Shown one piece after another: positions 3,832 to 51,951 of a DNA stretch of 52,210 bases. The stretch's first letter is position 1, and the number at the start of each line of letters is the position of its first letter. A model generated the notes under the pieces. It did no database searches. It had not been told where the DNA came from and was given only the letters and a program-made list of their open reading frames with translations. A program made the translations under genes and the position numbers. Source of the stretch: a virus; IMG/VR virus record IMGVR_UViG_3300046474_000602, positions 1-52,210 of that record. One strand, 5' to 3'.

Positions 3832-4551
3832 ATGCGTAGGGCTATAGCGTTTTTGGTTCTTCTAATAAGTATCTCGAGTCCACTTTGTGCGAGTCAGTTT
3901 ATAGGGGAGCTGAAACTGCTTCCTGAAGGCTGCCAGTTTACTAAAGAGCGAAAGTGTCAGTTAGGATCGATGCTTACTTTCAAGTCTCCAGATGGCTTGG
4001 TTTGGCAAACCGACACTTGGAAGGCGGGTAATTTAGAATCTGGAACAACTGATGGCGCATCGATCCCAAAATGGGCGCAACCTATAATAGGTGATGCTTA
4101 CGACTCGTCTTTCTTAAAAGCGGCAATTGTTCATGATCACTATTGCTACAAGGAAAATCAGGTTCGGTCGTGGTTTAAAACTCATCGGATGTTTTATTAC
4201 GCTCTAATCGATCTCGGTATTGACAAAGCCAAGGCGAAAACGATGTATTTTGCTGTCTTCGCTTTTGGACCTCACTGGAGGGATATTGTTCCTGGAGAAA
4301 ACTGTGGGGAAAATTGCATTAAGACTGTTGCTCCTTCTGGAAAGATTTCAGAAGACAGTCGGCTCAATTGGGAGAGTTCAATAACGACGACACAAAATTT
4401 TAAAGCGGCTGTTGAGGCGGATCCGAGTATGAGTCTTGATGAAATCGAAGCTTATGCTAAAGCAGCCAAGCCGAATGATTTTTACCTTGGTCAGGGAAGC
4501 ACGTATGTCGCCAAGGGAGTAAATGACCCAAACCTATTACAGAAATACTAG
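3832..4551 (+). CDS. Secreted DUF1353 family protein
   Basis: This 239-residue protein has a cleavable signal peptide (basic MRR, hydrophobic core, LCAS near residue 20), so it should be exported to the periplasm. Residues about 45-155 match DUF1353: the TDGASIP motif at 73-79, the HDHYCY motif at 101-106, then the 'RMFYYALIDLG' and 'MYFAVFAFG' helices. DUF1353 occurs in phage and secreted proteins and its activity is not established. The conserved Asp/His residues suggest a hydrolase, which is inference. GAGAGGGA precedes the ATG. A longer upstream reading frame has no ribosome site and would bury the signal peptide, so I rejected it. Confidence 0.8.
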   Translation: MRRAIAFLVLLISISSPLCASQFIGELKLLPEGCQFTKERKCQLGSMLTFKSPDGLVWQTDTWKAGNLESGTTDGASIPKWAQPIIGDAYDSSFLKAAIVHDHYCYKENQVRSWFKTHRMFYYALIDLGIDKAKAKTMYFAVFAFGPHWRDIVPGENCGENCIKTVAPSGKISEDSRLNWESSITTTQNFKAAVEADPSMSLDEIEAYAKAAKPNDFYLGQGSTYVAKGVNDPNLLQKY

Positions 4552-7104: not shown

Positions 7105-7221
7105 TTTCCGGGCAAAGGTCTGGCTCTCTTGGTAAACTTGCGCACCATCGTGAAACAGGCGTGTCTGTGCCGTGTAGCTGGTGCTGCCGTTGTAGCGCTT
7201 CCGCGTTCTAATCGTGGCCAT
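7105..7221 (-). pseudogene. Truncated dusA-type integrase, N-terminal 39 residues only
   Basis: From the ATG at 7221 the frame reads MATIRTRKRYNGSTSYTAQT and continues to 'QVYQESQTFARK', matching the intact integrase at 49699-50838 almost residue for residue. It then diverges completely at about 7104. All catalytic residues are missing. Like the intact gene it points away from a dusA start, so this marks the right end of an older element of the same integration family. Confidence 0.85.
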
Positions 7222-7322
7222 GGTCAACTGGTACAATTGCTAAAGGGGTTGGTACGTTGTAGCAATGGTCTTAAAAAAACGCCTATTTACCCTATAAAAC
7301 GGCTTTAAACACGTAGAGCAAA

Positions 7323-7436
7323 ATGTTAAATAAATCAGTTACATACCCAGTAAGCTCAGGCTCTACAGTGTCTAGACGCTTTAGCGTTGCGCCCATGATG
7401 GATTGGACGGATTGTTTGCCTCAACCCTTAAAATAA
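7323..7436 (+). pseudogene. dusA 5' fragment left by an earlier integration
   Basis: An open frame of 37 codons starts with an element-supplied leader, continues SRRFSVAPMMDWTDC, which is the conserved N-terminus of DusA, and then runs into foreign sequence and a stop. The layout (integrase, short leader, SRRFSVAPMMDWTD) repeats that at 50838-51030. It is the left junction of the prophage and at the same time the former right junction of the older island. Confidence 0.85.
7395..7406. other. attL core within the dusA fragment
   Basis: ATGATGGATTGG lies in the codons for MMDW of DusA and is shared exactly with 51013-51024 in the intact gene. The identity extends almost perfectly from about 7383 to 7408. 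The true crossover lies somewhere inside this block. Confidence 0.7.
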
Positions 7437-8344: not shown

Positions 8345-10303
8345 TTACACTAACTCGTTGAATACCTTAAACACTTGCGAAAACCGGTCCAAAGTCACAT
8401 TTACCGCAGATGAGTCTGTGTCTAGGATCGAGGGATTTTCGAGCAACCACCGTGCGGGGCTAAAATGGTCAAACTCCCGAACAGATGTAGGCATCAACTT
8501 AAACAGTGCCTCTGCTTTCTTGACTATACGGGGTGTCGAGTGAGCGTCTGACAGCGACTTCGCAGTGACTACATCCGATGCAGACAGGTTGTAGGCCCCA
8601 TTCAGAATTTCGATGAACAAGTCGTCATCGAAGAGATCTTCGACATCGGCTTCAGACTGTTCGACAAAATCGGCGCAGGTAAAGAAGTGGCCTGCCCTGA
8701 GAATCTCTGCTTTCTTTAGGTTCTCGATCTTCGTCTTGTCGCCGTTAGCAATGTCGGAGAGAACCGCCACACTTATACCGTTGCCACCGAAAAGACGTAC
8801 GAATGGAGCGATCTTATCAATGCCGCCAGATGGACAGAGCACCCACTTGCTGCTTAGCCCTTCGCGGCCACGCTTGATCAGTGCCTGAGAGACGACCTGC
8901 AGATACAGGATGTCGGATGGTCCTTCCACCAGCCAGGTGTTTGCGCCGATAAAAAGGGATTGCGTCACCTCATAACCCAATGCACCTTGCAGCGGGAACA
9001 AGGTGTCATCGTTGACCTCCAGGACATCGGACCGAACCTTAGTCCCCTTCACATCTGGTCGCTTCCCCCTTATCTCGACGACCACATCCTCGACAATGCG
9101 TACATCAGCCAAGCGATCCATGGGCACCATAAAGGGTGAGTGGGTCGTATAGATCACCTGATGGTCCGGCAGTAGGCGCTCGACGACGTAGCGCAGCAGA
9201 TCACCCTGGGCTTTACCATGCAGCGTCAAACCGGGCTCGTCCAAGAGGATTATGGTGTTACCGCTAGCCTTCTTGAGTTGTTTGAACTGGGCAAGGAACG
9301 AGAAGAACCAGACGAATCCCGCGCTACGCTCGGACAGCGGCAGAGTCGCTTTGTGATTGGTGTTTCTAATACGGATATCTGCCACCATCCCTGTATTAAA
9401 CGGCACCGGGTCGTTTGGCTTGGCAGTGTCGACTTCGATCACAACTTCTAAGGCATTATTCTGGCTCCAGAACTGAAAGATCTCGTCGGTGATATCATTG
9501 CTGGCGGCCTCACACATTGCTTTCAGTGCTTCACGGCGATCGGTCTCCAGCAGCTCCTCCAGAGTGGTGCCAGCGTACTCCAAGAAGTCTAAGAAAATTC
9601 TATCGCCGACCGATACTATGTTGTTCTGCTTATCTTGCTGCAGCTTCTGGATCGAAACCATTCCCGACATCCGCTCGAAGTGAGAGGTAAAGAAGAACTT
9701 AGGTTGGCGGGCTGCCAGAAGATCAATCACACCCAGACTGAAGTTCGACTTCCTGCACGTCTTGATGTCTAGAAGCAGGGCTTCCTGCTTTGCTGTCCGC
9801 TGAGTAAGAGCGGACAATGCCTTGTCAGCCGAAATGCCATCATGAACACCATGGAGCACATTTCGTTCTGTGGCATCGAGGGCATGTTTTTTGACCAAGT
9901 TGTCCAAGCACTGGGCTTGGTCAACGTTGATTTCCCAAACTCGGCTGTCATCGTCGTATCGGAATCCAAAATGGGCTTGGAAGGACTCGCTACTGAGAAC
10001 CCCCTCCCCGAACCGCTTTTCAACCGCCGCCTTGTCGGATTCATCGAGCCGCCACCACGTCCGAATTACTTCAGCCGCACCTTCAGGATGTCGGTCGTCA
10101 AACCTGGTCGAAAATCGACGGGGGTAGTCGACTGTCTCGTCGAACTCGAAAGATTGTGCCGGCTTCAATCCACGTATTGCGCTTAGCAACGCCGTCTTAC
10201 CTGCCTCGTTTTTACCCACCAAACAGGTGAGGTCGCCGATGTCGAACTCTTCGCTATCCTCAACGGAACGGTAGTTTTGGACGCGAACCTTTGTGAGCTT
10301 CAT
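8345..10303 (-). CDS. OLD-family ATPase/Toprim nuclease
   Basis: This 652-residue protein begins with an ABC/SMC-type ATPase: 'NYRSVEDSEEFDIGDLTCLV', Walker A GKNEAGKT at residues about 31-38, a signature-like 'LPLSERSAGFVWFFSFLAQF', and Walker B LLDEPG near 353 followed by 'VIYTTHSPFMVP'. A Toprim domain follows: 'WLVEGPSD' near 458 supplies the catalytic Glu, and 'VAVLSDIANGD' near 515 the acidic pair. OLD proteins are metal-dependent nucleases, and the P2 old gene excludes lambda. No UvrD-like gene (GajB) is adjacent, so this is a class 1, stand-alone type and not Gabija. GGAG precedes the ATG. Its position in prophage cargo suggests phage exclusion. Confidence 0.85.
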   Translation of the reverse strand: MKLTKVRVQNYRSVEDSEEFDIGDLTCLVGKNEAGKTALLSAIRGLKPAQSFEFDETVDYPRRFSTRFDDRHPEGAAEVIRTWWRLDESDKAAVEKRFGEGVLSSESFQAHFGFRYDDDSRVWEINVDQAQCLDNLVKKHALDATERNVLHGVHDGISADKALSALTQRTAKQEALLLDIKTCRKSNFSLGVIDLLAARQPKFFFTSHFERMSGMVSIQKLQQDKQNNIVSVGDRIFLDFLEYAGTTLEELLETDRREALKAMCEAASNDITDEIFQFWSQNNALEVVIEVDTAKPNDPVPFNTGMVADIRIRNTNHKATLPLSERSAGFVWFFSFLAQFKQLKKASGNTIILLDEPGLTLHGKAQGDLLRYVVERLLPDHQVIYTTHSPFMVPMDRLADVRIVEDVVVEIRGKRPDVKGTKVRSDVLEVNDDTLFPLQGALGYEVTQSLFIGANTWLVEGPSDILYLQVVSQALIKRGREGLSSKWVLCPSGGIDKIAPFVRLFGGNGISVAVLSDIANGDKTKIENLKKAEILRAGHFFTCADFVEQSEADVEDLFDDDLFIEILNGAYNLSASDVVTAKSLSDAHSTPRIVKKAEALFKLMPTSVREFDHFSPARWLLENPSILDTDSSAVNVTLDRFSQVFKVFNELV

Positions 10304-11706: not shown

Positions 11707-11755
11707 CCAGCTTCCCAAGCTGATAACGAGGGTTCGATTCCCTTCACCCGCTCCA
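11707..11755 (+). pseudogene. 3' fragment of tRNA-Gly(CCC), attachment-site remnant
   Basis: The anticodon arm with loop TTCCCAA, the T-arm GGTTCGATTCC and the acceptor end CACCCGCTCCA are present. The expected 5' acceptor strand GCGGGTG is absent upstream, so this is not a working tRNA. Integrative elements commonly carry such a 3' copy at one end. Confidence 0.7.
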
Positions 11756-11790
11756 CTGTTTTCAAGGCTTCCAGCCTTACCCCCTTCAAC

Positions 11791-11971: not shown

Positions 11972-12222
11972 CCCTGCCCGGCCCGCGATGATGATTGCAA
12001 TCAGTCATAAGCCAACTTTCGTAACGATGGCAGCGAGTGCGCAAAAGGCCACCATTCAAACCCTCATGCTAGTGCGGTTACCATCCGCTTCCTGCAATGA
12101 CATGGAACAGGGAAATAAGCGCTGCTAACAGGAATTGTCCTACAGCTTGTGCGCGAGCTTCCCGGTAACGTCATTCCGCCCCAACCTCAGGGCCGGAACC
12201 ACCAAGGACGAAAGGAAGCTGC

Positions 12223-13428
12223 ATGTCCGGTTATGTACCAAAACCAGCTTTGCGGAACGCGACTATTGCCAACAGCGGTGGCGAGCCCGTTGATACCTAC
12301 GCCCTGCGCTGGGCGGAATACAGAGATCTTCCATCAAAGCCAGAAGCCAAGCCCGACTCCATGGGCTGTGTATTCGCCAAGAGCTGTAACCTCCCTGACG
12401 GTGTAATCAATCACAAGAACCCTGCCGGATTTGTGCCTGTTGAGAAACTGGCCGATTACGGGTTGTGGGCTGTGCTAGGTACTGGTGCAGCGATAACCGC
12501 ACAAGGCACCCCGCTCCAACTGGTGGGTGGGTCTGCTACTGGCAGTGCAATCGCTCAACGTCTCGGCGGATCGCTGTCACTGGGTCTGCTGGAAGGATCA
12601 GGCGTTGTAGCTGCGGGCTTTGTAATGGGCACTATTGGACTGCTGATACCAAACACCAGCATTGCACCTGACAGCGCTTTCTACACGAACGATCAATACG
12701 CAACGCTTGACGCTGGCCGCACACGTGTACGCGTCAACGTGAAGACCTTGCCGGACGGCTCCGTCAACGCTTACGGCTTCTACACGGGCGGCAAGTCGGA
12801 ATGGGAAAACGTCCCTGTCATCAAGGGCGAGAAAGTCGGCGAGACTTATGTTGCTGACATCGGCAACGGGATTGGCCTCACCTGGACGCCTGCGGCAAGT
12901 CCTGAAGGTGTGCTGGGTATTCCTGCACTGGAAGGCGCCCCACAGTTGCCACCCGTCTGGGTGTATCCGCCGACCGCACAATCTGACACGGTGCTGGCGA
13001 ACCCTGCACATCCTCCGGAGTTCCAAGATGCAATCATCTGGTTCCCTGACTCGGGGATTGAGCCAATCTACATTGTGCTCAGCACACAGCTGGAGAACAA
13101 CAAGAAACAGGGCAAGGCCTTCGAAGACACGTCTTACGATAAGTACAGCGAGACCAGACCCGAAGCCGTCCGCGAGGTTACGGTTAAAACCGACAGTGGT
13201 GTGAAGACCCGAATTGATATGATGGGCCGGGACACTGACGGAGAGATTTCATGCGTTGAATGCAAGTCATCTGAAACCGCACCACTGACCAAGAATCAGA
13301 AAGCTGCCTTCCCTGAAATTGAGAAAACTGGTGCAACCGTTGTTGGCAAAGGCAAGCCCGGCTTCCCAGGCGGCACCAAGATACCCCCCACCAGGATCGA
13401 AATCCTTCGACCTGATTCACCCCTCTGA
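12223..13428 (+). CDS. Short S-type-pyocin-like bacteriocin with PD-(D/E)XK nuclease domain
   Basis: This 401-residue protein has an N-terminal region of about 80 residues, then a pyocin-S/colicin-type translocation domain (about 85-290). That domain is glycine-rich and hydrophobic around 'LLEGSGVVAAGFVMGTIGLL', followed by 'ATLDAGRTRVRVNVKTLPDG' and 'IGLTWTPAASP'. Residues about 300-400 look like a restriction-endonuclease-fold toxin: 'GKAFEDTSYDKY', 'TRIDMMGRD', 'CVECKSS' near 345 and 'TKNQKAAFPEIE'. It has no obvious receptor-binding domain, so it is shorter than classical S pyocins. A GGAAG site precedes ATG 12223. The immunity gene follows 10 bases after the stop. Confidence 0.75.
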   Translation: MSGYVPKPALRNATIANSGGEPVDTYALRWAEYRDLPSKPEAKPDSMGCVFAKSCNLPDGVINHKNPAGFVPVEKLADYGLWAVLGTGAAITAQGTPLQLVGGSATGSAIAQRLGGSLSLGLLEGSGVVAAGFVMGTIGLLIPNTSIAPDSAFYTNDQYATLDAGRTRVRVNVKTLPDGSVNAYGFYTGGKSEWENVPVIKGEKVGETYVADIGNGIGLTWTPAASPEGVLGIPALEGAPQLPPVWVYPPTAQSDTVLANPAHPPEFQDAIIWFPDSGIEPIYIVLSTQLENNKKQGKAFEDTSYDKYSETRPEAVREVTVKTDSGVKTRIDMMGRDTDGEISCVECKSSETAPLTKNQKAAFPEIEKTGATVVGKGKPGFPGGTKIPPTRIEILRPDSPL

Positions 13429-13438
13429 GGGAGCAGAC

Positions 13439-13795
13439 ATGTCCATTGTAGAAACGAAAGTCGTCGATATTATTGCCGTACCAGAGTGGGAACCCAAAAA
13501 CGTAATTCTGGTTATCAGCGACCACCTCAAATGGGGCGACAAGGCCCAACAGGGCGAACACCTGCTGTTGCTGCAAGAGAAAATCAATACCTACATTGCC
13601 TTCATCGAAAGCGGCGAGATATTGGAGAGCTACCCACCATCCAAAGGCAAGCTTCCCATCATCCGCATTAACGGCTTGTACGAACTACCAGAACAAGCGG
13701 AGTTCTTCGTAGACCGCGTTGCACAGACACTAAAGGAAGTGGGTATCGGGTTTGAGTTCGTGCTTGATGCGAATGAAGACATTCGCAACATGTGA
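13439..13795 (+). CDS. DUF6572 family protein, probable immunity to the bacteriocin
   Basis: This 118-residue acidic protein matches DUF6572 as I know it: 'KVVDIIAVPEWEPKNVILVI', 'ISDHLKWGD', then 'HLLLLQEKINTYIAFIESGE' and a C-terminal 'GIGFEFVLDANEDI'. DUF6572 genes commonly sit directly after bacteriocin or polymorphic-toxin genes, and an acidic protein suits neutralising a basic nuclease. Start ATG 13439 has GGGAG upstream and follows the toxin stop by 10 bases. The role as immunity protein is inferred from context. Confidence 0.75.
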   Translation: MSIVETKVVDIIAVPEWEPKNVILVISDHLKWGDKAQQGEHLLLLQEKINTYIAFIESGEILESYPPSKGKLPIIRINGLYELPEQAEFFVDRVAQTLKEVGIGFEFVLDANEDIRNM

Positions 13796-17776: not shown

Positions 17777-18316
17777 TCACTTCGGTGTTGATACTTCTTT
17801 GGCATAGGCCTGACAGGCCGCCAACGCGATCAGTCCTCGATCGCCGGCATCGGTGATGCCGATAATTCGTTGAGCATGCGCCGGGTCAAGTTGGGCTCTT
17901 GTGGCGCCATGAACCACGCCGCCGGTGGCGGCGGCTGACACTGAGCCGCCGCTGGCTGAATCGGTGGCGTCGAGTAGGACTGACAGGCGCAGATCAGCAG
18001 TGGCAAGGCGGTCGCGCAGGCGACCTTGATCACGTTGGGCATCGCTCAGGGCTCGGTAATGGGTTTGTTCACTGGCTGAAAGCCGCTGCTCCAGGGCCAG
18101 ACGTTTGGCCTGCTCGGTTTGTTGCTGCGCGGCAGCGGCCAGCGTCTGTTGGTTGAGGCGTTCCGCCTGCAGGCGGGCTTGTTGCTCAAGCTGGCGGCCG
18201 TAGCGCCAGTCCTGAACCTGCCAGGCCAACGCGGCAGAACCACCCGCCAATGCGGCCAGCAGCACGCCGATGGCCAGCAGCCGATACGGCACCGGAATCA
18301 GGTCGACGACACGCAT
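17777..18316 (-). CDS. Inner-membrane spanin (Rz-like)
   Basis: This 179-residue protein has an uncleaved N-terminal membrane anchor ('YRLLAIGVLLAALAGGSAAL', about 11-30). A long Gln/Ala/Arg-rich coiled coil follows to about residue 120, with a periplasmic tail containing 'GLIALAACQAY'. This is the layout of i-spanins, which join with Rz1 to fuse inner and outer membranes in the last step of lysis. GAGGG precedes ATG 18316, and the start overlaps the endolysin stop by 19 bases. The Rz1-type gene lies inside it in another frame. Confidence 0.85.
   Translation of the reverse strand: MRVVDLIPVPYRLLAIGVLLAALAGGSAALAWQVQDWRYGRQLEQQARLQAERLNQQTLAAAAQQQTEQAKRLALEQRLSASEQTHYRALSDAQRDQGRLRDRLATADLRLSVLLDATDSASGGSVSAAATGGVVHGATRAQLDPAHAQRIIGITDAGDRGLIALAACQAYAKEVSTPK
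17830..18042 (-). CDS. Outer-membrane spanin (Rz1-like lipoprotein) nested in Rz
   Basis: This 70-residue protein is wholly contained in the Rz frame, shifted in phase. It has a lipoprotein signal ending L-L-I-C-A-C, with the lipidated Cys at about residue 20. A proline-rich mature part contains 'TPPIQPAAAQCQPPPPAAW', as is typical for o-spanins. It should sit in the outer membrane and pair with the C-terminus of the i-spanin. ATG 18042 has a GAG-type ribosome site. Confidence 0.8.
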   Translation of the reverse strand: MPNVIKVACATALPLLICACQSYSTPPIQPAAAQCQPPPPAAWFMAPQEPNLTRRMLNELSASPMPAIED

Positions 18317-18861
18317 AGCACTGCCCTCGCCCGCTTCCACAATTGCAGCCGATCCGCCAGGCCGTTGAGGCCACCGTTGATCTTGCGGGTGATTGCCTCG
18401 AACTCGTGACGATCTGCCAGAGCGTTCAGCTCACGCACCCACCAGAACCACGCGGCCGACTCAGCGGCCCATTGCGGCAGCTCGAGCAACTCCGGGGTGC
18501 GCAGCAATCGTTCATCACCAAACAGTGCCAGGCTACAGCGCAGGTAGTTGTTGCGGCCGGTGATCTGAATCAAGCCACGACCGCGATAGCGCTGACCGTC
18601 GCCGTCGCCCTCCGGCGTATTGCCCAGCTTCACCGCGAGACTGCCGGTGTCGTACTTGCTCAGGTACTGATCACCGCCCAGTTCACGGACGTACTGCAGT
18701 TGGCCGGACTCGTGTCCGACCTGGGCCAGGAACGCGGCCTGCCGCTGCGGCGTGTTGATCTGCCGATGAGTCATGGCGGCGTTGAGAGCGGATACAAAAA
18801 CGCCCGCTTGGCGGCGGGCGTTGGGCATGATGCGCTGTAGCTGTTGCTCTGTCAGTGACAT
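18298..18861 (-). CDS. Phage endolysin, glycoside hydrolase family 19
   Basis: This 187-residue protein looks like the lysozyme-like GH19 endolysins of Pseudomonas phages and R/F pyocins. The catalytic Glu is in 'AFLAQVGHESGQLQYVREL' near residue 51. 'YRGRGLIQITGRNNYLRC' is the conserved sugar-binding block, and 'AAWFWWVRELNALAD' follows. It has no signal peptide, so it needs the holin, which is encoded far away at 39094-39438. It stands between the gpD-like tail gene and the spanins. Confidence 0.88.
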   Translation of the reverse strand: MSLTEQQLQRIMPNARRQAGVFVSALNAAMTHRQINTPQRQAAFLAQVGHESGQLQYVRELGGDQYLSKYDTGSLAVKLGNTPEGDGDGQRYRGRGLIQITGRNNYLRCSLALFGDERLLRTPELLELPQWAAESAAWFWWVRELNALADRHEFEAITRKINGGLNGLADRLQLWKRARAVLCVSST

Positions 18862-39093: not shown

Positions 39094-39438
39094 TCACCCC
39101 TGCTCGCCCCCGCTGGGCGGGACCTCCGAGACGCCCAATCGCTTGGCGGCCCAACGTTCGTAGAGGCCAATGGCGACATCGGCGCCCGCCATCGCGGTCA
39201 GACAGCCCAAGCTGCCCGCCGTCCAGATTGACATGCCCGCCGCGATCATCAGCATCATCGCCGACACGCCGCAGACGATGCAGGCGCCGGACCGCAGCGC
39301 CAGGCGCCGCAACAACGCCCAACCCCTCGCCCCGTCCTTATCGGCTCGCCACATCTCCCCCGATACACCGCCGACCAGGGCCAGGACGATTACTAACCAG
39401 ATCGGCATCTCTGCCAGCGCTTGTTGCTCGTTTGTCAT
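39094..39438 (-). CDS. Phage holin (LydA / holin 3 type)
   Basis: This 114-residue protein has a short polar N-terminus, a first membrane helix 'PIWLVIVLALVGGVSGEMW', a basic loop, and further helices 'GACIVCGVSAMMLMIAAGMS' and 'TAGSLGCLTAMAGADVAIGL', with a charged tail. It makes the inner-membrane hole for the cytoplasmic GH19 endolysin, although that gene is some 20 kb away. It is the first gene of the late leftward block. Confidence 0.85.
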   Translation of the reverse strand: MTNEQQALAEMPIWLVIVLALVGGVSGEMWRADKDGARGWALLRRLALRSGACIVCGVSAMMLMIAAGMSIWTAGSLGCLTAMAGADVAIGLYERWAAKRLGVSEVPPSGGEQG

Positions 39439-45917: not shown

Positions 45918-46083
45918 GGAATACGCCCGCCAGATTATCGCCATGAGTACACGCGAGGAGCGCAACGCTGCACTCCTCGAAGTACCAGAGCATCTGCGGG
46001 AACTGACCAAACGCCACTGCCTGAACGCCTGGAATCACCCATCACGACTTAAACGCAAGGAGGCCGAGCAACCCCATGAGTAA
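45904..46083 (+). CDS. Small hypothetical protein (GTG start)
   Basis: This is a 59-residue protein from GTG 45904: 'TWPREYARQIIAMSTREERN', 'AALLEVPEHLRELTKRHCLN' and a basic end. It overlaps the KilAC gene before it by 14 bases and the PrtN-like gene after it by 8 bases. Helical and charged, it is a type seen in Pseudomonas phage early operons as I recall. An in-frame ATG exists 13 codons in. Confidence 0.6.
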   Translation: MTWPREYARQIIAMSTREERNAALLEVPEHLRELTKRHCLNAWNHPSRLKRKEAEQPHE

Positions 46084-46393
46084 CTCCAACCAAACACCGC
46101 TACGACTACTTCCCGCGCCGGACAGCTCCACCGTCGAGATGCTGCACCACCTCTTCGGCGACGTGCTTATTCCCCTCGAAAAGCTGCGCGTGCACTACTT
46201 CAAGAACCTCAATGAAAAGACGTTCACAGAAGCGATCAACAGCGGGCGGATTCAACTACCGGTGACCACCATCGACCACAGCGTGAAGGCTTTGAGGTAT
46301 GCCCATATCAGGCACGTTGCCGCATTGATCGACATCCGCGCTTACAAGGCTGACGAAGAAATGCCGCGTCCACTTACCGACTCAACCGAGTAA
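46076..46393 (+). CDS. PrtN-family (pyocin activator-like) protein, copy 1
   Basis: This 105-residue protein has the PrtN pattern 'FGDVLIPLEKLRVHYFKNLN', 'KTFTEAINSGRIQLPVTTID', 'ALRYAHIRHVAALIDIRAYK'. It is more divergent than the second copy at 48424-48699. PrtN activates pyocin genes by binding P-boxes upstream of them. In this phage it may control the late or accessory genes. It overlaps the small gene upstream by 8 bases. Confidence 0.75.
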   Translation: MSNSNQTPLRLLPAPDSSTVEMLHHLFGDVLIPLEKLRVHYFKNLNEKTFTEAINSGRIQLPVTTIDHSVKALRYAHIRHVAALIDIRAYKADEEMPRPLTDSTE

Positions 46394-47127: not shown

Positions 47128-47498
47128 AGAAGGACCTGCATACCACCCAAGCATCGACCGCTTTGCTCCGCACTGCCAATCGTGTCGACACAACTGAAAC
47201 AAACAGTCTCTGCTGCGCAGCAGCAGGCATTATTGTCCCTCTCAGCGCCACTACCCAGGCACTTATACCCCACGAAAAGCTGCGCGGGGCAGCGCTCGCT
47301 GATGCAACGCTAAACGCTCAGAAACGCCCGCTCGCGCAGCCTGTCGTGGGGTACAAAACCACCTCGCACACTCAAAATATGAGCGAAATAAAGGAGCTTA
47401 TGTGCATTCCCGGCGCCGGTCGAAAACTAGCCGGACAAATCCATGCAGTGGGCTACCGATTGAGCCTCAGCGTGGCACAGCAAGGAGAACTTCAATGA
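47124..47498 (+). CDS. Hypothetical protein with a possible DNA-binding C-terminus
   Basis: This protein has 124 residues from ATG 47124, with GGAGG 8 bases upstream. The first half is Thr/Ala-rich, including 'GIIVPLSATTQALIPHEKLR'. The end contains 'ELMCIPGAGRKLAGQIHAVG', a possible helix-hairpin-helix, though this is weak. The longer opening from 46794 overlaps other genes out of frame and is not used. It overlaps the next gene by ATGA. Confidence 0.5.
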   Translation: MKKDLHTTQASTALLRTANRVDTTETNSLCCAAAGIIVPLSATTQALIPHEKLRGAALADATLNAQKRPLAQPVVGYKTTSHTQNMSEIKELMCIPGAGRKLAGQIHAVGYRLSLSVAQQGELQ

Positions 47499-49698: not shown

Positions 49699-50838
49699 CT
49701 ATTTTGCCTTCAATGAAGCAACCGCTCGTGATCCCAGAACGACGGGGGTGTTTACGATGTTCTCCAGCCACGGCCATTTGGCATAGTGGTCCCCTCTACC
49801 ACGTAGATGGGTATAGCGCCGCAACGAGTTCCAATCCCTGTGCCCCGAGACACTGGCCACTCGCGGGATATCCCAATCCATTTCAAACAGCCGACTCACT
49901 CCGTCGTGACGCAGATCGTGGAAGTGCAAATCCTCGATCTCCAGGAACTTGCAAGCCTTCGCCCACGAAGTCGAGATAGACGCAGAGTTGTAGGGAAAGA
50001 CTTCAGCGCACGTCTTCGGCATGCTCTGCAGGATGCGCCAAGCCTCATCCGGTAGATGACACCAAACATCATTGCCGATTTTCTGGCCCGGATTCTTCAT
50101 GTCACGCACCATCACTCGCTTACCTGCTTCGTCGACGTCCACCCAAAGAATGCGGGAGATTTCGTCTTGTCGGCGGGTTGAGAACAGTGCGAAGCCGGTA
50201 ACCTTGAGCATGTTGATCGAGCTCGGGCGCCGCTGCAGGATGCCAACAAAATGCTTCAGCAACTTATCAAGCTCATCCTTTGTCGGCCGCCGATCCCGTT
50301 CGCGGCTTTTCATGTTGTAGCCGAGCTTCCTCAGGACTTTTCTCGCATCTCCCATAGCATGGATATCGACTTCATAGCCCCAGGCCGGTCGCGCAATCGA
50401 TAGGACAGCCCCAAGATGCGCCAGATCGTTACCGGCCGTCTGCGGCTGGACACCGCCGCCCTCTTTGCTCATACGCCATAGTGCAAAATCCACCAATCGC
50501 TGACTGTTGATGGCGGAATCAACGGTCTGGCCAAACTCCGTCGCCGCGATAGCATTTAGAGTGGCTTCCTTGGTTTTACCCAACGGTCGGACTTTCTCCA
50601 TTTCATCCAGGTACTGCTTGATCATGTCCTGTACGGTGACGCCCTTGCGGTTCGCCCGCTCAATCGCACCAGGCTGATCTAGCTCTGCCTCACGTCGCCT
50701 CACCCACGCTTGTGCCGCCTGTTTCCGGGCGAAGGTCTGGCTCTCTTGGTAGACTTGCGCTCCATCGCGAAACAGGCGTATCTGTGCCGTGTAACTGATT
50801 GAGCCATCGGTGCGTTTTCGTGCTCTGATCGTTGCCAT
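49699..50838 (-). CDS. int: Tyrosine integrase of the dusA-associated family
   Basis: This 379-residue protein has the arm-binding start 'ATIRARKRTDGSISYTAQIR' and the core-binding region 'NRKGVTVQDMIKQYLDEMEK'. The catalytic residues are Arg in 'FSTRRQDEIS' near 224, HDLRH near 311, the His in 'VSGHRDW', and the nucleophile Tyr in 'RRYTHLRG' near 343. ATG 50838 is chosen; the longer opening has no ribosome site. It lies just before dusA, pointing away, as in the dusA integration family. It should catalyse excision and insertion at the core near 51013. Confidence 0.92.
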   Translation of the reverse strand: MATIRARKRTDGSISYTAQIRLFRDGAQVYQESQTFARKQAAQAWVRRREAELDQPGAIERANRKGVTVQDMIKQYLDEMEKVRPLGKTKEATLNAIAATEFGQTVDSAINSQRLVDFALWRMSKEGGGVQPQTAGNDLAHLGAVLSIARPAWGYEVDIHAMGDARKVLRKLGYNMKSRERDRRPTKDELDKLLKHFVGILQRRPSSINMLKVTGFALFSTRRQDEISRILWVDVDEAGKRVMVRDMKNPGQKIGNDVWCHLPDEAWRILQSMPKTCAEVFPYNSASISTSWAKACKFLEIEDLHFHDLRHDGVSRLFEMDWDIPRVASVSGHRDWNSLRRYTHLRGRGDHYAKWPWLENIVNTPVVLGSRAVASLKAK

Positions 50839-50940
50839 AGTCGACTGGTACAATTCCGAAAGTGATTGGTACATTGTACCAGCGCCATCGAAAAAACGCC
50901 TGAAAACGCCTAAAAACACGCTATAAATACGTTGAGCCAA

Positions 50941-51951
50941 ATGGTACCAAACACCCACTTCAGCCCAGTAAACTCAAGCCCTGCGCTATCTCGGCGGTTT
51001 TCCGTTGCGCCTATGATGGATTGGACCGATCGCCACTGCCGTTTCTTCCTACGCCTACTCTCCAAGCACGCCCTCCTCTACACCGAAATGGTCACCACCG
51101 GCGCCCTGCTCAACGGCGACCACGACCGTTTCCTACGCCACAACGAAGCCGAACACCCGCTCGCCCTGCAACTCGGCGGCAGTGTCCCGCTGGATCTGGC
51201 CGCCTGCGCACGCATGGCCCAGGAACACGGTTACGACGAGGTGAATTTGAATGTTGGCTGCCCGAGTGATCGGGTGCAGAACAATATGATCGGGGCGTGC
51301 CTGATGGGGCATCCGCAGTTGGTGGCTGATTGCGTGAAGGCGATGCGTGATGCGGTGTCGATTCCGGTGACGGTGAAGCATCGGATCGGGATTAATGGGC
51401 GGGACAGTTACGAGGAGTTGTGTGATTTCGTCGGCACGGTTCGGGACGCCGGGTGCACGAGTTTTACGGTGCATGCGCGAATTGCGATTCTGGAGGGGTT
51501 GTCGCCGAAGGAGAACCGCGACATTCCGCCTCTGCGCTATGACGTGGCGGCGCGGTTGAAGACGGATTTTCCGGAGCTGGAGATTATTCTCAACGGCGGG
51601 ATCAAGACGCTGGAGGCTTGTCGCGAGCATTTGCAGACGTTCGACGGCGTGATGCTGGGTCGTGAGGCGTATCACAATCCTTATGTGATGGCTGAGGTGG
51701 ATCAGCAGCTGTTCGGCAGCACGGCACCAGTGATCAGCCGGGCCGAGGCGTTGGCGCAGTTGCGTCCTTATATCGCCGAGCATCTGCTGGCGGGTGGATC
51801 GATGCACCATATCACCCGGCATGTGCTGGGGCTGGGCACCGGGTTCCCGGGGGCGCGCAAGTTTCGGCAGTTGTTGTCGGTGGATATTCACAAGGCCAAA
51901 GAGCCTTTGGCCTTGCTGGATCAGGCGGCGGAGTTGTTGGAGGGGCGTTAA
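50941..51951 (+). CDS. dusA: tRNA-dihydrouridine(20/20a) synthase DusA
   Basis: This 336-residue FMN enzyme reduces uridine in the D-loop of tRNA. Visible motifs are 'FSVAPMMDWTDRHCRFFLRL', 'LALQLGGSVPLDLAACARMA', 'VNLNVGCPSDRVQ' with the catalytic Cys, 'ITVKHRIG'-type 'VTVKHRIGINGRDSYEELCD', 'NGGIKTLEACREHL' and the 'GVMLGREAYHNPYVM' FMN-binding end. The first ~16 residues up to SRRFSV are encoded by prophage DNA, not by the original gene, so the protein N-terminus and promoter depend on the element. There is no strong ribosome site before ATG 50941. Confidence 0.95.
   Translation: MVPNTHFSPVNSSPALSRRFSVAPMMDWTDRHCRFFLRLLSKHALLYTEMVTTGALLNGDHDRFLRHNEAEHPLALQLGGSVPLDLAACARMAQEHGYDEVNLNVGCPSDRVQNNMIGACLMGHPQLVADCVKAMRDAVSIPVTVKHRIGINGRDSYEELCDFVGTVRDAGCTSFTVHARIAILEGLSPKENRDIPPLRYDVAARLKTDFPELEIILNGGIKTLEACREHLQTFDGVMLGREAYHNPYVMAEVDQQLFGSTAPVISRAEALAQLRPYIAEHLLAGGSMHHITRHVLGLGTGFPGARKFRQLLSVDIHKAKEPLALLDQAAELLEGR
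51013..51024. other. attR core inside dusA
   Basis: ATGATGGATTGG, in the codons for MMDW, is shared with 7395-7406 and 7604-7615. It is the most likely crossover region of the prophage integrase and defines the right end of the element. Confidence 0.7.

Follow-up and report, generated by a model that had tools for sequence, protein, structure and literature searches.

A prophage-borne PD-(D/E)XK-like nuclease toxin of Pseudomonas with a DUF6572 partner and a shared N-terminal module: a possible orphan cargo effector of the type VI secretion system

Among the described systems closest to the locus considered here are nuclease S-type pyocins and colicins, in which a translocation (IMT) domain is combined with a C-terminal nuclease and an immunity gene lies just 3′ of the toxin gene. 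According to the excerpt of the source used here, IMT domains are known both in bacteriocins and in effectors of the type VI secretion system (T6SS) (PMC9040868). Three pyocin-like T6SS effectors, YPK_0952, VPA1263 and ECA1669, contain an IMT domain like that of the toxin described below, and the first two of them have a nuclease. VPA1263 carries a MIX domain. YPK_0952 carries a PAAR domain (PMC7813860, in excerpt), and proof exists that this DNase, which combines PAAR with pyocin-S, acts as a T6SS effector (PMC11237486, in excerpt). In group N1 of the P. fluorescens group, described by Loper et al. (2012), PF06958 is joined to active domains that vary, among them DNase and Cytotoxic PF09000, a pattern also found in the relatives studied here; in the excerpted part of that paper N1 is taken as bacteriocins and an N-terminus common with Tle1-like proteins is not mentioned, and the likeness is drawn by domain description only (PMC3390384). 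The T6SS effectors with MIX, FIX, RIX, PIX and WHIX may offer another parallel, as a common piece is found there on chemically different toxins. Finally, dusA-associated integrase prophages have an integrase at dusA, att copies, a PrtN homologue and cargo (PMC4482086, in excerpt).

The locus was found in a viral stretch of 52,210 nucleotides (IMG/VR record IMGVR_UViG_3300046474_000602, positions 1 to 52,210), hereafter the window. An integrase beside dusA and a dusA-type att repeat at the far end assign the element to the dusA-associated prophages, and its difference from those in the excerpted source (PMC4482086) is the pair of toxin and DUF6572 genes that it bears. The features of the element are the following:

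7386-7411, + strand: left dusA-type att copy (24 of 26 bases identical to 51004-51029)
51004-51029, + strand: right att copy (repeat of 7386-7411)
49699-50958, − strand: integrase adjoining dusA (PF00589, phrog_1)
46076-46393, + strand: PrtN/excisionase homologue (PF11112, E 1.8e-23; phrog_1300, excisionase)
17777-18340, − strand: Rz-like spanin (phrog_2466/phrog_181 assignments for the pair at 17777-18861)
18298-18861, − strand: endolysin (same assignments for the pair)

The 5′ region of dusA is repeated, imperfectly, over 300 bp (7105-7412 and 50722-51030), and the presence of genes for terminase, portal, protease, sheath, tape measure, endolysin and spanin identifies a contractile-tail prophage. 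The toxin pair is situated in the cargo arm, which extends from attL to the late genes, on the strand opposite to the latter. For comparison, 92 loci were collected, comprising the window, 11 viral loci and the best 80 of 216 genomic relatives; the same toxin was found at 27 of these 92. Selected genome searches covered 44 of the 80 genome loci, from 41 genomes; when 50,697 phage records were queried with the toxin by tblastn, no match was obtained. A dusA-type att copy 5′ of the toxin was also detected in L001, L002 and L024 and, more weakly, in L012 and L013.

Several further observations concern the element itself. An AAA_15/OLD-like gene is present in the cargo arm of the window (8345-10303) and an OLD-like TOPRIM gene in that of L024, so that the arm looks like a place where differing defence genes are housed; in four related prophages, the eight cargo genes examined belonged only to scattered families. 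About 490 nt 5′ of the toxin (11708-11757) there is a sequence that we take to be the 3′ half of a tRNA-Gly(CCC)-like gene; the same half occurs in L001 (twice, at 3876 and 9508), L003, L012, L013 (1.5 kb upstream), L024 and L026, and inside a phage it is perhaps an old attachment site or a landing pad for cargo. At 47262-47286, 25 bp nearly repeat positions 46166-46190 of the PrtN/excisionase gene and might be what is left of a second or broken copy.

The toxin gene and its parts are as follows:

12223-13428, + strand: toxin gene, 401 aa (open reading frame; relatives at viral and genomic loci)
12223-12363, + strand: residues 1-47, N-terminal module (SGYVP...EPVD..A.RWAEY), proposed delivery tag (profile A5 and pLDDT)
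12364-12462, + strand: residues 48-80, segment GCVFAKSC...PVEKLADYG (alignment A3)
12463-13089, + strand: residues 81-289, colicin/pyocin-type translocation domain, with IMT/PF06958 at 162-285 (Pfam and fold)
13090-13425, + strand: residues 290-401, PD-(D/E)XK-like nuclease domain (phrog_34091, fold and conserved residues)

A reading of this DNA made earlier from its letters alone (the sequence-only reading) had named a pyocin-S-type translocation domain, and Pfam recovered it (Pyocin_S PF06958, residues 162-285, E 8.5e-24). In the AlphaFold model, obtained with an input alignment of 59 sequences (mean pLDDT 75, pTM 0.58), residues 81-289 adopt a colicin-like fold. The Z values against colicin translocation domains and 3mfb were within 7.0-8.2, the highest belonging to ColE9 (7nsu_D, 158 aligned residues, 4.2 A); colicins E3, E7, D and B aligned as well, and residues 149-288 matched 3mfb_A, the S-type pyocin domain of ECA1669, with Z 7.3. 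This part of the toxin is no less similar to the translocation domains of true colicins than to 3mfb, which is assigned to T6SS; this counts against delivery by T6SS. The absence of a receptor domain, suspected from the letters, agrees with the predicted structure, where disordered residues 1-43 (pLDDT <50) are followed by the translocation part 81-289 fused straight to the nuclease 290-401. Cysteines 49 and 55 (GCVFAKSC) are invariant in all 59 sequences of alignment A3, from which interrupted frames and close duplicates were excluded; they might form a disulfide or bind a metal. The closest NCBIfam model was VPA1263 (T6SS effector DNase), whose cut-off is 900 bits; the toxin scored 67 bits to it, and a family member with Col-Pyo DNase reached 254 bits over residues 75-445. 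In comparison with nuclease S-type pyocins and colicins, the toxin has 401 aa, lacks a receptor domain, shares its N-terminus with phospholipases and has a nuclease of PD-(D/E)XK-like type that is partnered by DUF6572; unlike YPK_0952 and VPA1263, it has a different N-terminus of 45 residues and no T6SS gene nearby.

The C-terminal part is predicted, from its motif and its modelled fold, to be a PD-(D/E)XK-like nuclease, as had been proposed. It matches phrog_34091 (residues 290-397, E 6.4e-26), and several PD-(D/E)XK nucleases align with residues 290-401 of the predicted model at the middling Z values of 3-5.3, with Card1 (6wxw_A) at Z 5.3, 95 aligned residues and 5.1 A, also middling. In an alignment of nine nuclease domains, which includes the distant copy of L104, D332, E346 and K348 (motifs RIDMMG and VECK) are kept in 9 of 9, and E301, R330 and Q359 are conserved likewise. 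The toxin domain alone gave zero Pfam matches even at E 10. The domain was detected in 6 of 199 Pseudomonas genomes. In L104, from a Pseudomonas genome (G101:C48, 1167-3282, minus strand), the same domain ends an open frame of 3002 aa and is preceded by PT-HINT; an ORF that looks by eye like DUF6572 follows it, and the giant protein is predicted to be a CDI-like polymorphic toxin. The recurrence of nuclease and DUF6572 at the end of such a protein marks the pair as a polymorphic toxin/immunity cassette. In the relatives the C-terminus is swapped: among 10 scanned, Cytotoxic was found in four, Col-Pyo DNase in four and Ntox44 in one, and one was not recognised.

The partner gene follows the toxin immediately:

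13439-13795, + strand: DUF6572 gene encoding 118 aa, probably the cognate immunity protein (Pfam, linkage and co-variation)

Its likely ATG is at 13439, and the product matches DUF6572 (PF20212) with E 4.2e-32 and 111 bits against a cut-off of 27. A DUF6572 gene lies 14-31 nt 3′ of the toxin in 25 of the 27 loci with the same toxin, the other two (L008 and L011) being cut at or within the toxin, and in none of the 65 relatives with other toxins, in a set whose genomic part is the best 80 of 216. Pairwise identities of DUF6572 follow those of the toxin domain (r = 0.923) more closely than those of residues 48-285 (r 0.574) or 1-47 (0.33). The partial r with the toxin domain is 0.903, and none of 2000 permutations was as high; these values, calculated from 24 of the 25 loci bearing DUF6572 (L026 with its frameshifted toxin was excluded), include no phylogenetic correction, and adjacent stretches of DNA tend to move as one in any case. 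Along with the open reading frames, the att copies and the integrase, these data bear out the prophage-borne pair of nuclease toxin and DUF6572 that the sequence-only reading had described, and DUF6572 is likely to be the immunity protein of the nuclease. A second DUF6572 gene of another subtype stands in tandem in L016, L019, L021, L023 and L025, which is what one would expect if immunity genes were being acquired as protection from the toxins of rivals. Structural comparison of DUF6572 gave no convincing fold relatives: the best Foldseek E was 0.05, and the best VIA-align Z was 6.8, all rows being middling, with CdiA-CT/CdiI entries among them that prove nothing. In S. suis, as far as the excerpt of the source goes, neutralisation by the tested immunity protein was due to a part other than DUF6572 (PMC12558993), which counts against the proposed role.

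The N-terminus of the toxin is not confined to nucleases. Using profile A5, built from 21 sequences and corresponding to residues 1-47, the SGYVP module was found in 42 of 298 Pseudomonas genomes. Twenty-nine of 30 fetched frames were readable (L135 gave none) and had two architectures, namely IMT nucleases, some of them broken, and proteins of 509-513 aa with the motifs FFDGTGNN and FGFSRGAAAARHF. The latter belong to PF09994, T6SS_Tle1-like_cat, in 3 of 3 scanned cases (41-51 bits against a cut-off of 27), Tle1-like being used here as a Pfam label with modest scores. A third architecture, reached via the upstream box described below, comprises 382 aa with a stretch that we read as LysM-like, Pfam giving nothing notable on these proteins, and a glycine-rich hydrophobic end. 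Residues 1-47 of the toxin in the window are 38% identical to the Tle1-like N-terminus over 47 positions and 52% to the LysM-like one over 33. The 382-aa proteins (L106, L177-L180) are possibly pore-forming effectors with an immunity protein; a small ORF resembling a membrane protein follows the L106 copy. A literature search, based on parts of the sources, found no description of the SGYVP module or of the toxin/DUF6572 pair, which is not proof of absence.

This distribution of the short N-terminus suggests that it marks proteins for delivery by an injection system and does not belong to a freely released bacteriocin. Because it is common with Tle1-like phospholipases, a class of T6SS effectors, the toxin may have no need of a receptor.

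Control elements upstream of the gene are shared too:

12126-12147, + strand: upstream box TAACAGGAATTGTCCTACAGCT, common to most of the toxin family
12202-12222, + strand: leader with GGA repeats over the ribosome-binding site

The repeats of this leader may be RsmA-type sites. The box, of 22 bp and similar to TTTNRGGANNTGTCCTACAGCC, is located 97 nt 5′ of the toxin ATG in the window and, by weight matrix, upstream of 66 of the 92 loci, including the best 80 of 216 genomic ones. Since the matrix was trained on regions that it scored, only the rarity of the box elsewhere and pattern searches in whole genomes count as tests. On both strands of 1.79 Mb, 75 sites exceeded 14 bits and all but 10 of these (65) preceded toxins, and the strict palindrome TAGGA-N4-TCCTA gave 14 forward-strand sites, including 12 upstream of toxins. 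In 10 whole genomes the box with up to two mismatches occurred 14 times (reversed-pattern control, 1), of which eight sites preceded an IMT toxin, one a LysM-like gene and five were elsewhere. Across 298 genomes, 16 sites with up to one mismatch were found, and 10 of them, by their coordinates, precede a module gene by no more than ~230 nt. The box is thus found before LysM-like genes and also before IMT toxins that differ in their N-termini and in their toxin domains. The Tle1-like genes have another leader (TGTCACCCT...GGATCAGAACAAGGAATCAAGGATTG) in common with the same-toxin loci L008, L009, L011, L016, L019, L021, L023 and L025, L014 being a repeat of L009.

The tag and leaders common with Tle1-like phospholipases, together with the missing receptor domain, favour delivery by T6SS. 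In our opinion, there is a slightly better than even chance that the toxin pair is an orphan T6SS cargo effector with its immunity protein, carried as prophage cargo. TssC was present in 42 of 42 genomes with the module and in 220 of 256 without it (Fisher p 0.003), but clade is a confounder here. For a different type of N-terminus in the toxin family the figures were 87 of 90 versus 175 of 208, so the host clade may explain the association; the values 42/42 and 87/90 were read by eye, and a script found no overlap of the 42 genomes with 20 listed negatives. Three genomes carrying relatives (L035, L036 and L042) have no TssC. In eight genomes, possibly representing one shared synteny, a Tle1-like module gene is 47.5-72.9 kb from the TssC gene. 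A link of the module with one T6SS subtype via the TssC score was dropped because the classes were not clean. Against delivery by T6SS, a search for vgrG, hcp and tssC gave none in 91 loci or the window and none in the surroundings of Tle1-like and LysM-like module genes (20 stretches), with a positive control run. The vicinity of vgrG or hcp is usual for T6SS cargo effectors, but not obligatory.

The lack of T6SS genes nearby is also what would be expected of a short diffusible S-type-like bacteriocin freed by phage lysis, with residues 1-47 as a disordered segment for import through an outer-membrane protein, as in nuclease colicins. The colicin-like translocation domain and the disordered N-terminus fit such a protein, the variable PF06958 group N1 is classed with bacteriocins by Loper et al. 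in the excerpted text (PMC3390384), and lysis genes are encoded in the same element, an Rz-like spanin flanking 13 of the 27 loci with the same toxin. However, the strand is opposite to that of the lysis genes (also in the 11 such loci displayed), many relatives have no lysis genes in the flank (a spanin was not seen in that of L015, L016, L018, L019, L022, L023 and L025, among others), there is no receptor domain, and the same N-terminus occurs on phospholipases and LysM-like proteins. Moreover, a pattern search revealed no LexA (SOS) or PrtN box, as defined by the patterns used, within 450-500 nt upstream in the window and 26 loci. A bacteriocin of this kind seems rather unlikely to us.

The complete lysis cassette that had been claimed beside the toxin is there only in part: endolysin and Rz are encoded in the element, but ~4 kb past the DUF6572 gene, with other ORFs intervening, on the minus strand and with no holin identified next to them. 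Lysis genes within a toxin operon were rejected in view of their opposite orientation and a separation of kilobases. Close to the gene of the small terminase subunit, a short ORF (39094-39438, minus strand) encodes hydrophobic stretches and is possibly the holin, far from the endolysin. As to the PrtN activators, one PF11112 homologue was confirmed, which PHROGs, however, calls an excisionase. PrtN as the activator of the toxin was rejected, as no P-box was found and PrtN is general in dusA islands; in the excerpted survey, homologues are reported in 60 of the surveyed dusA islands (63.8%), whatever the cargo (PMC4482086). Release of a bacteriocin at phage lysis, as the sequence-only reading had it, is therefore not supported by these data; that reading had the objects right, but probably not the mechanism.

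Two other routes can be considered. An effector exported by T6SS might also enter cells by itself from the medium: YPK_0952 of Y. pseudotuberculosis kills with and without contact (PMC11237486, in excerpt), Tce1 offers a parallel (PMC7813860, in excerpt), and the architecture of the toxin is compatible with both routes; we regard such dual use as improbable. Loading of the toxin into the contractile tail or virion followed by injection, or a role in superinfection exclusion, is suggested by the sheath and tape measure genes of the element. The same toxins are nevertheless found where the surrounding 10 kb contain none of these phage genes, and the tag occurs on other kinds of genes elsewhere in the genome, which makes this explanation very improbable.

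Returning to the orphan T6SS effector, the cassette would serve as antibacterial effector/immunity cargo in the left arm of a temperate phage inserted at dusA. Residues 1-47 would act as a portable tag directing export through the own T6SS of the host, residues 81-289 would bring the nuclease across the inner membrane of the target, and residues 290-401 would cut nucleic acid, presumably as a DNase, in the target cytoplasm. Binding of DUF6572 to the nuclease would neutralise it and protect lysogens. More broadly, and with somewhat less than even confidence, it may be proposed that the SGYVP N-terminus of 45 residues is an undescribed delivery tag. The tag would unite nucleases, Tle1-like phospholipases and membrane-active LysM-like proteins of Pseudomonas in one class of polymorphic antibacterial effectors, which would have control elements of its own upstream, and temperate dusA phages would trade T6SS effector/immunity cassettes of this kind.

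Receptor-less "S-type pyocin" genes are common in Pseudomonas and are easily labelled as bacteriocins. If the N-terminus is a T6SS tag, many of these annotations would change, and orphan effectors far from any vgrG could be found through the tag. DUF6572 gains a likely role as an immunity protein against nucleases. Under the same assumption, the phage would arm its lysogen via the secretion system of the host instead of lysis.
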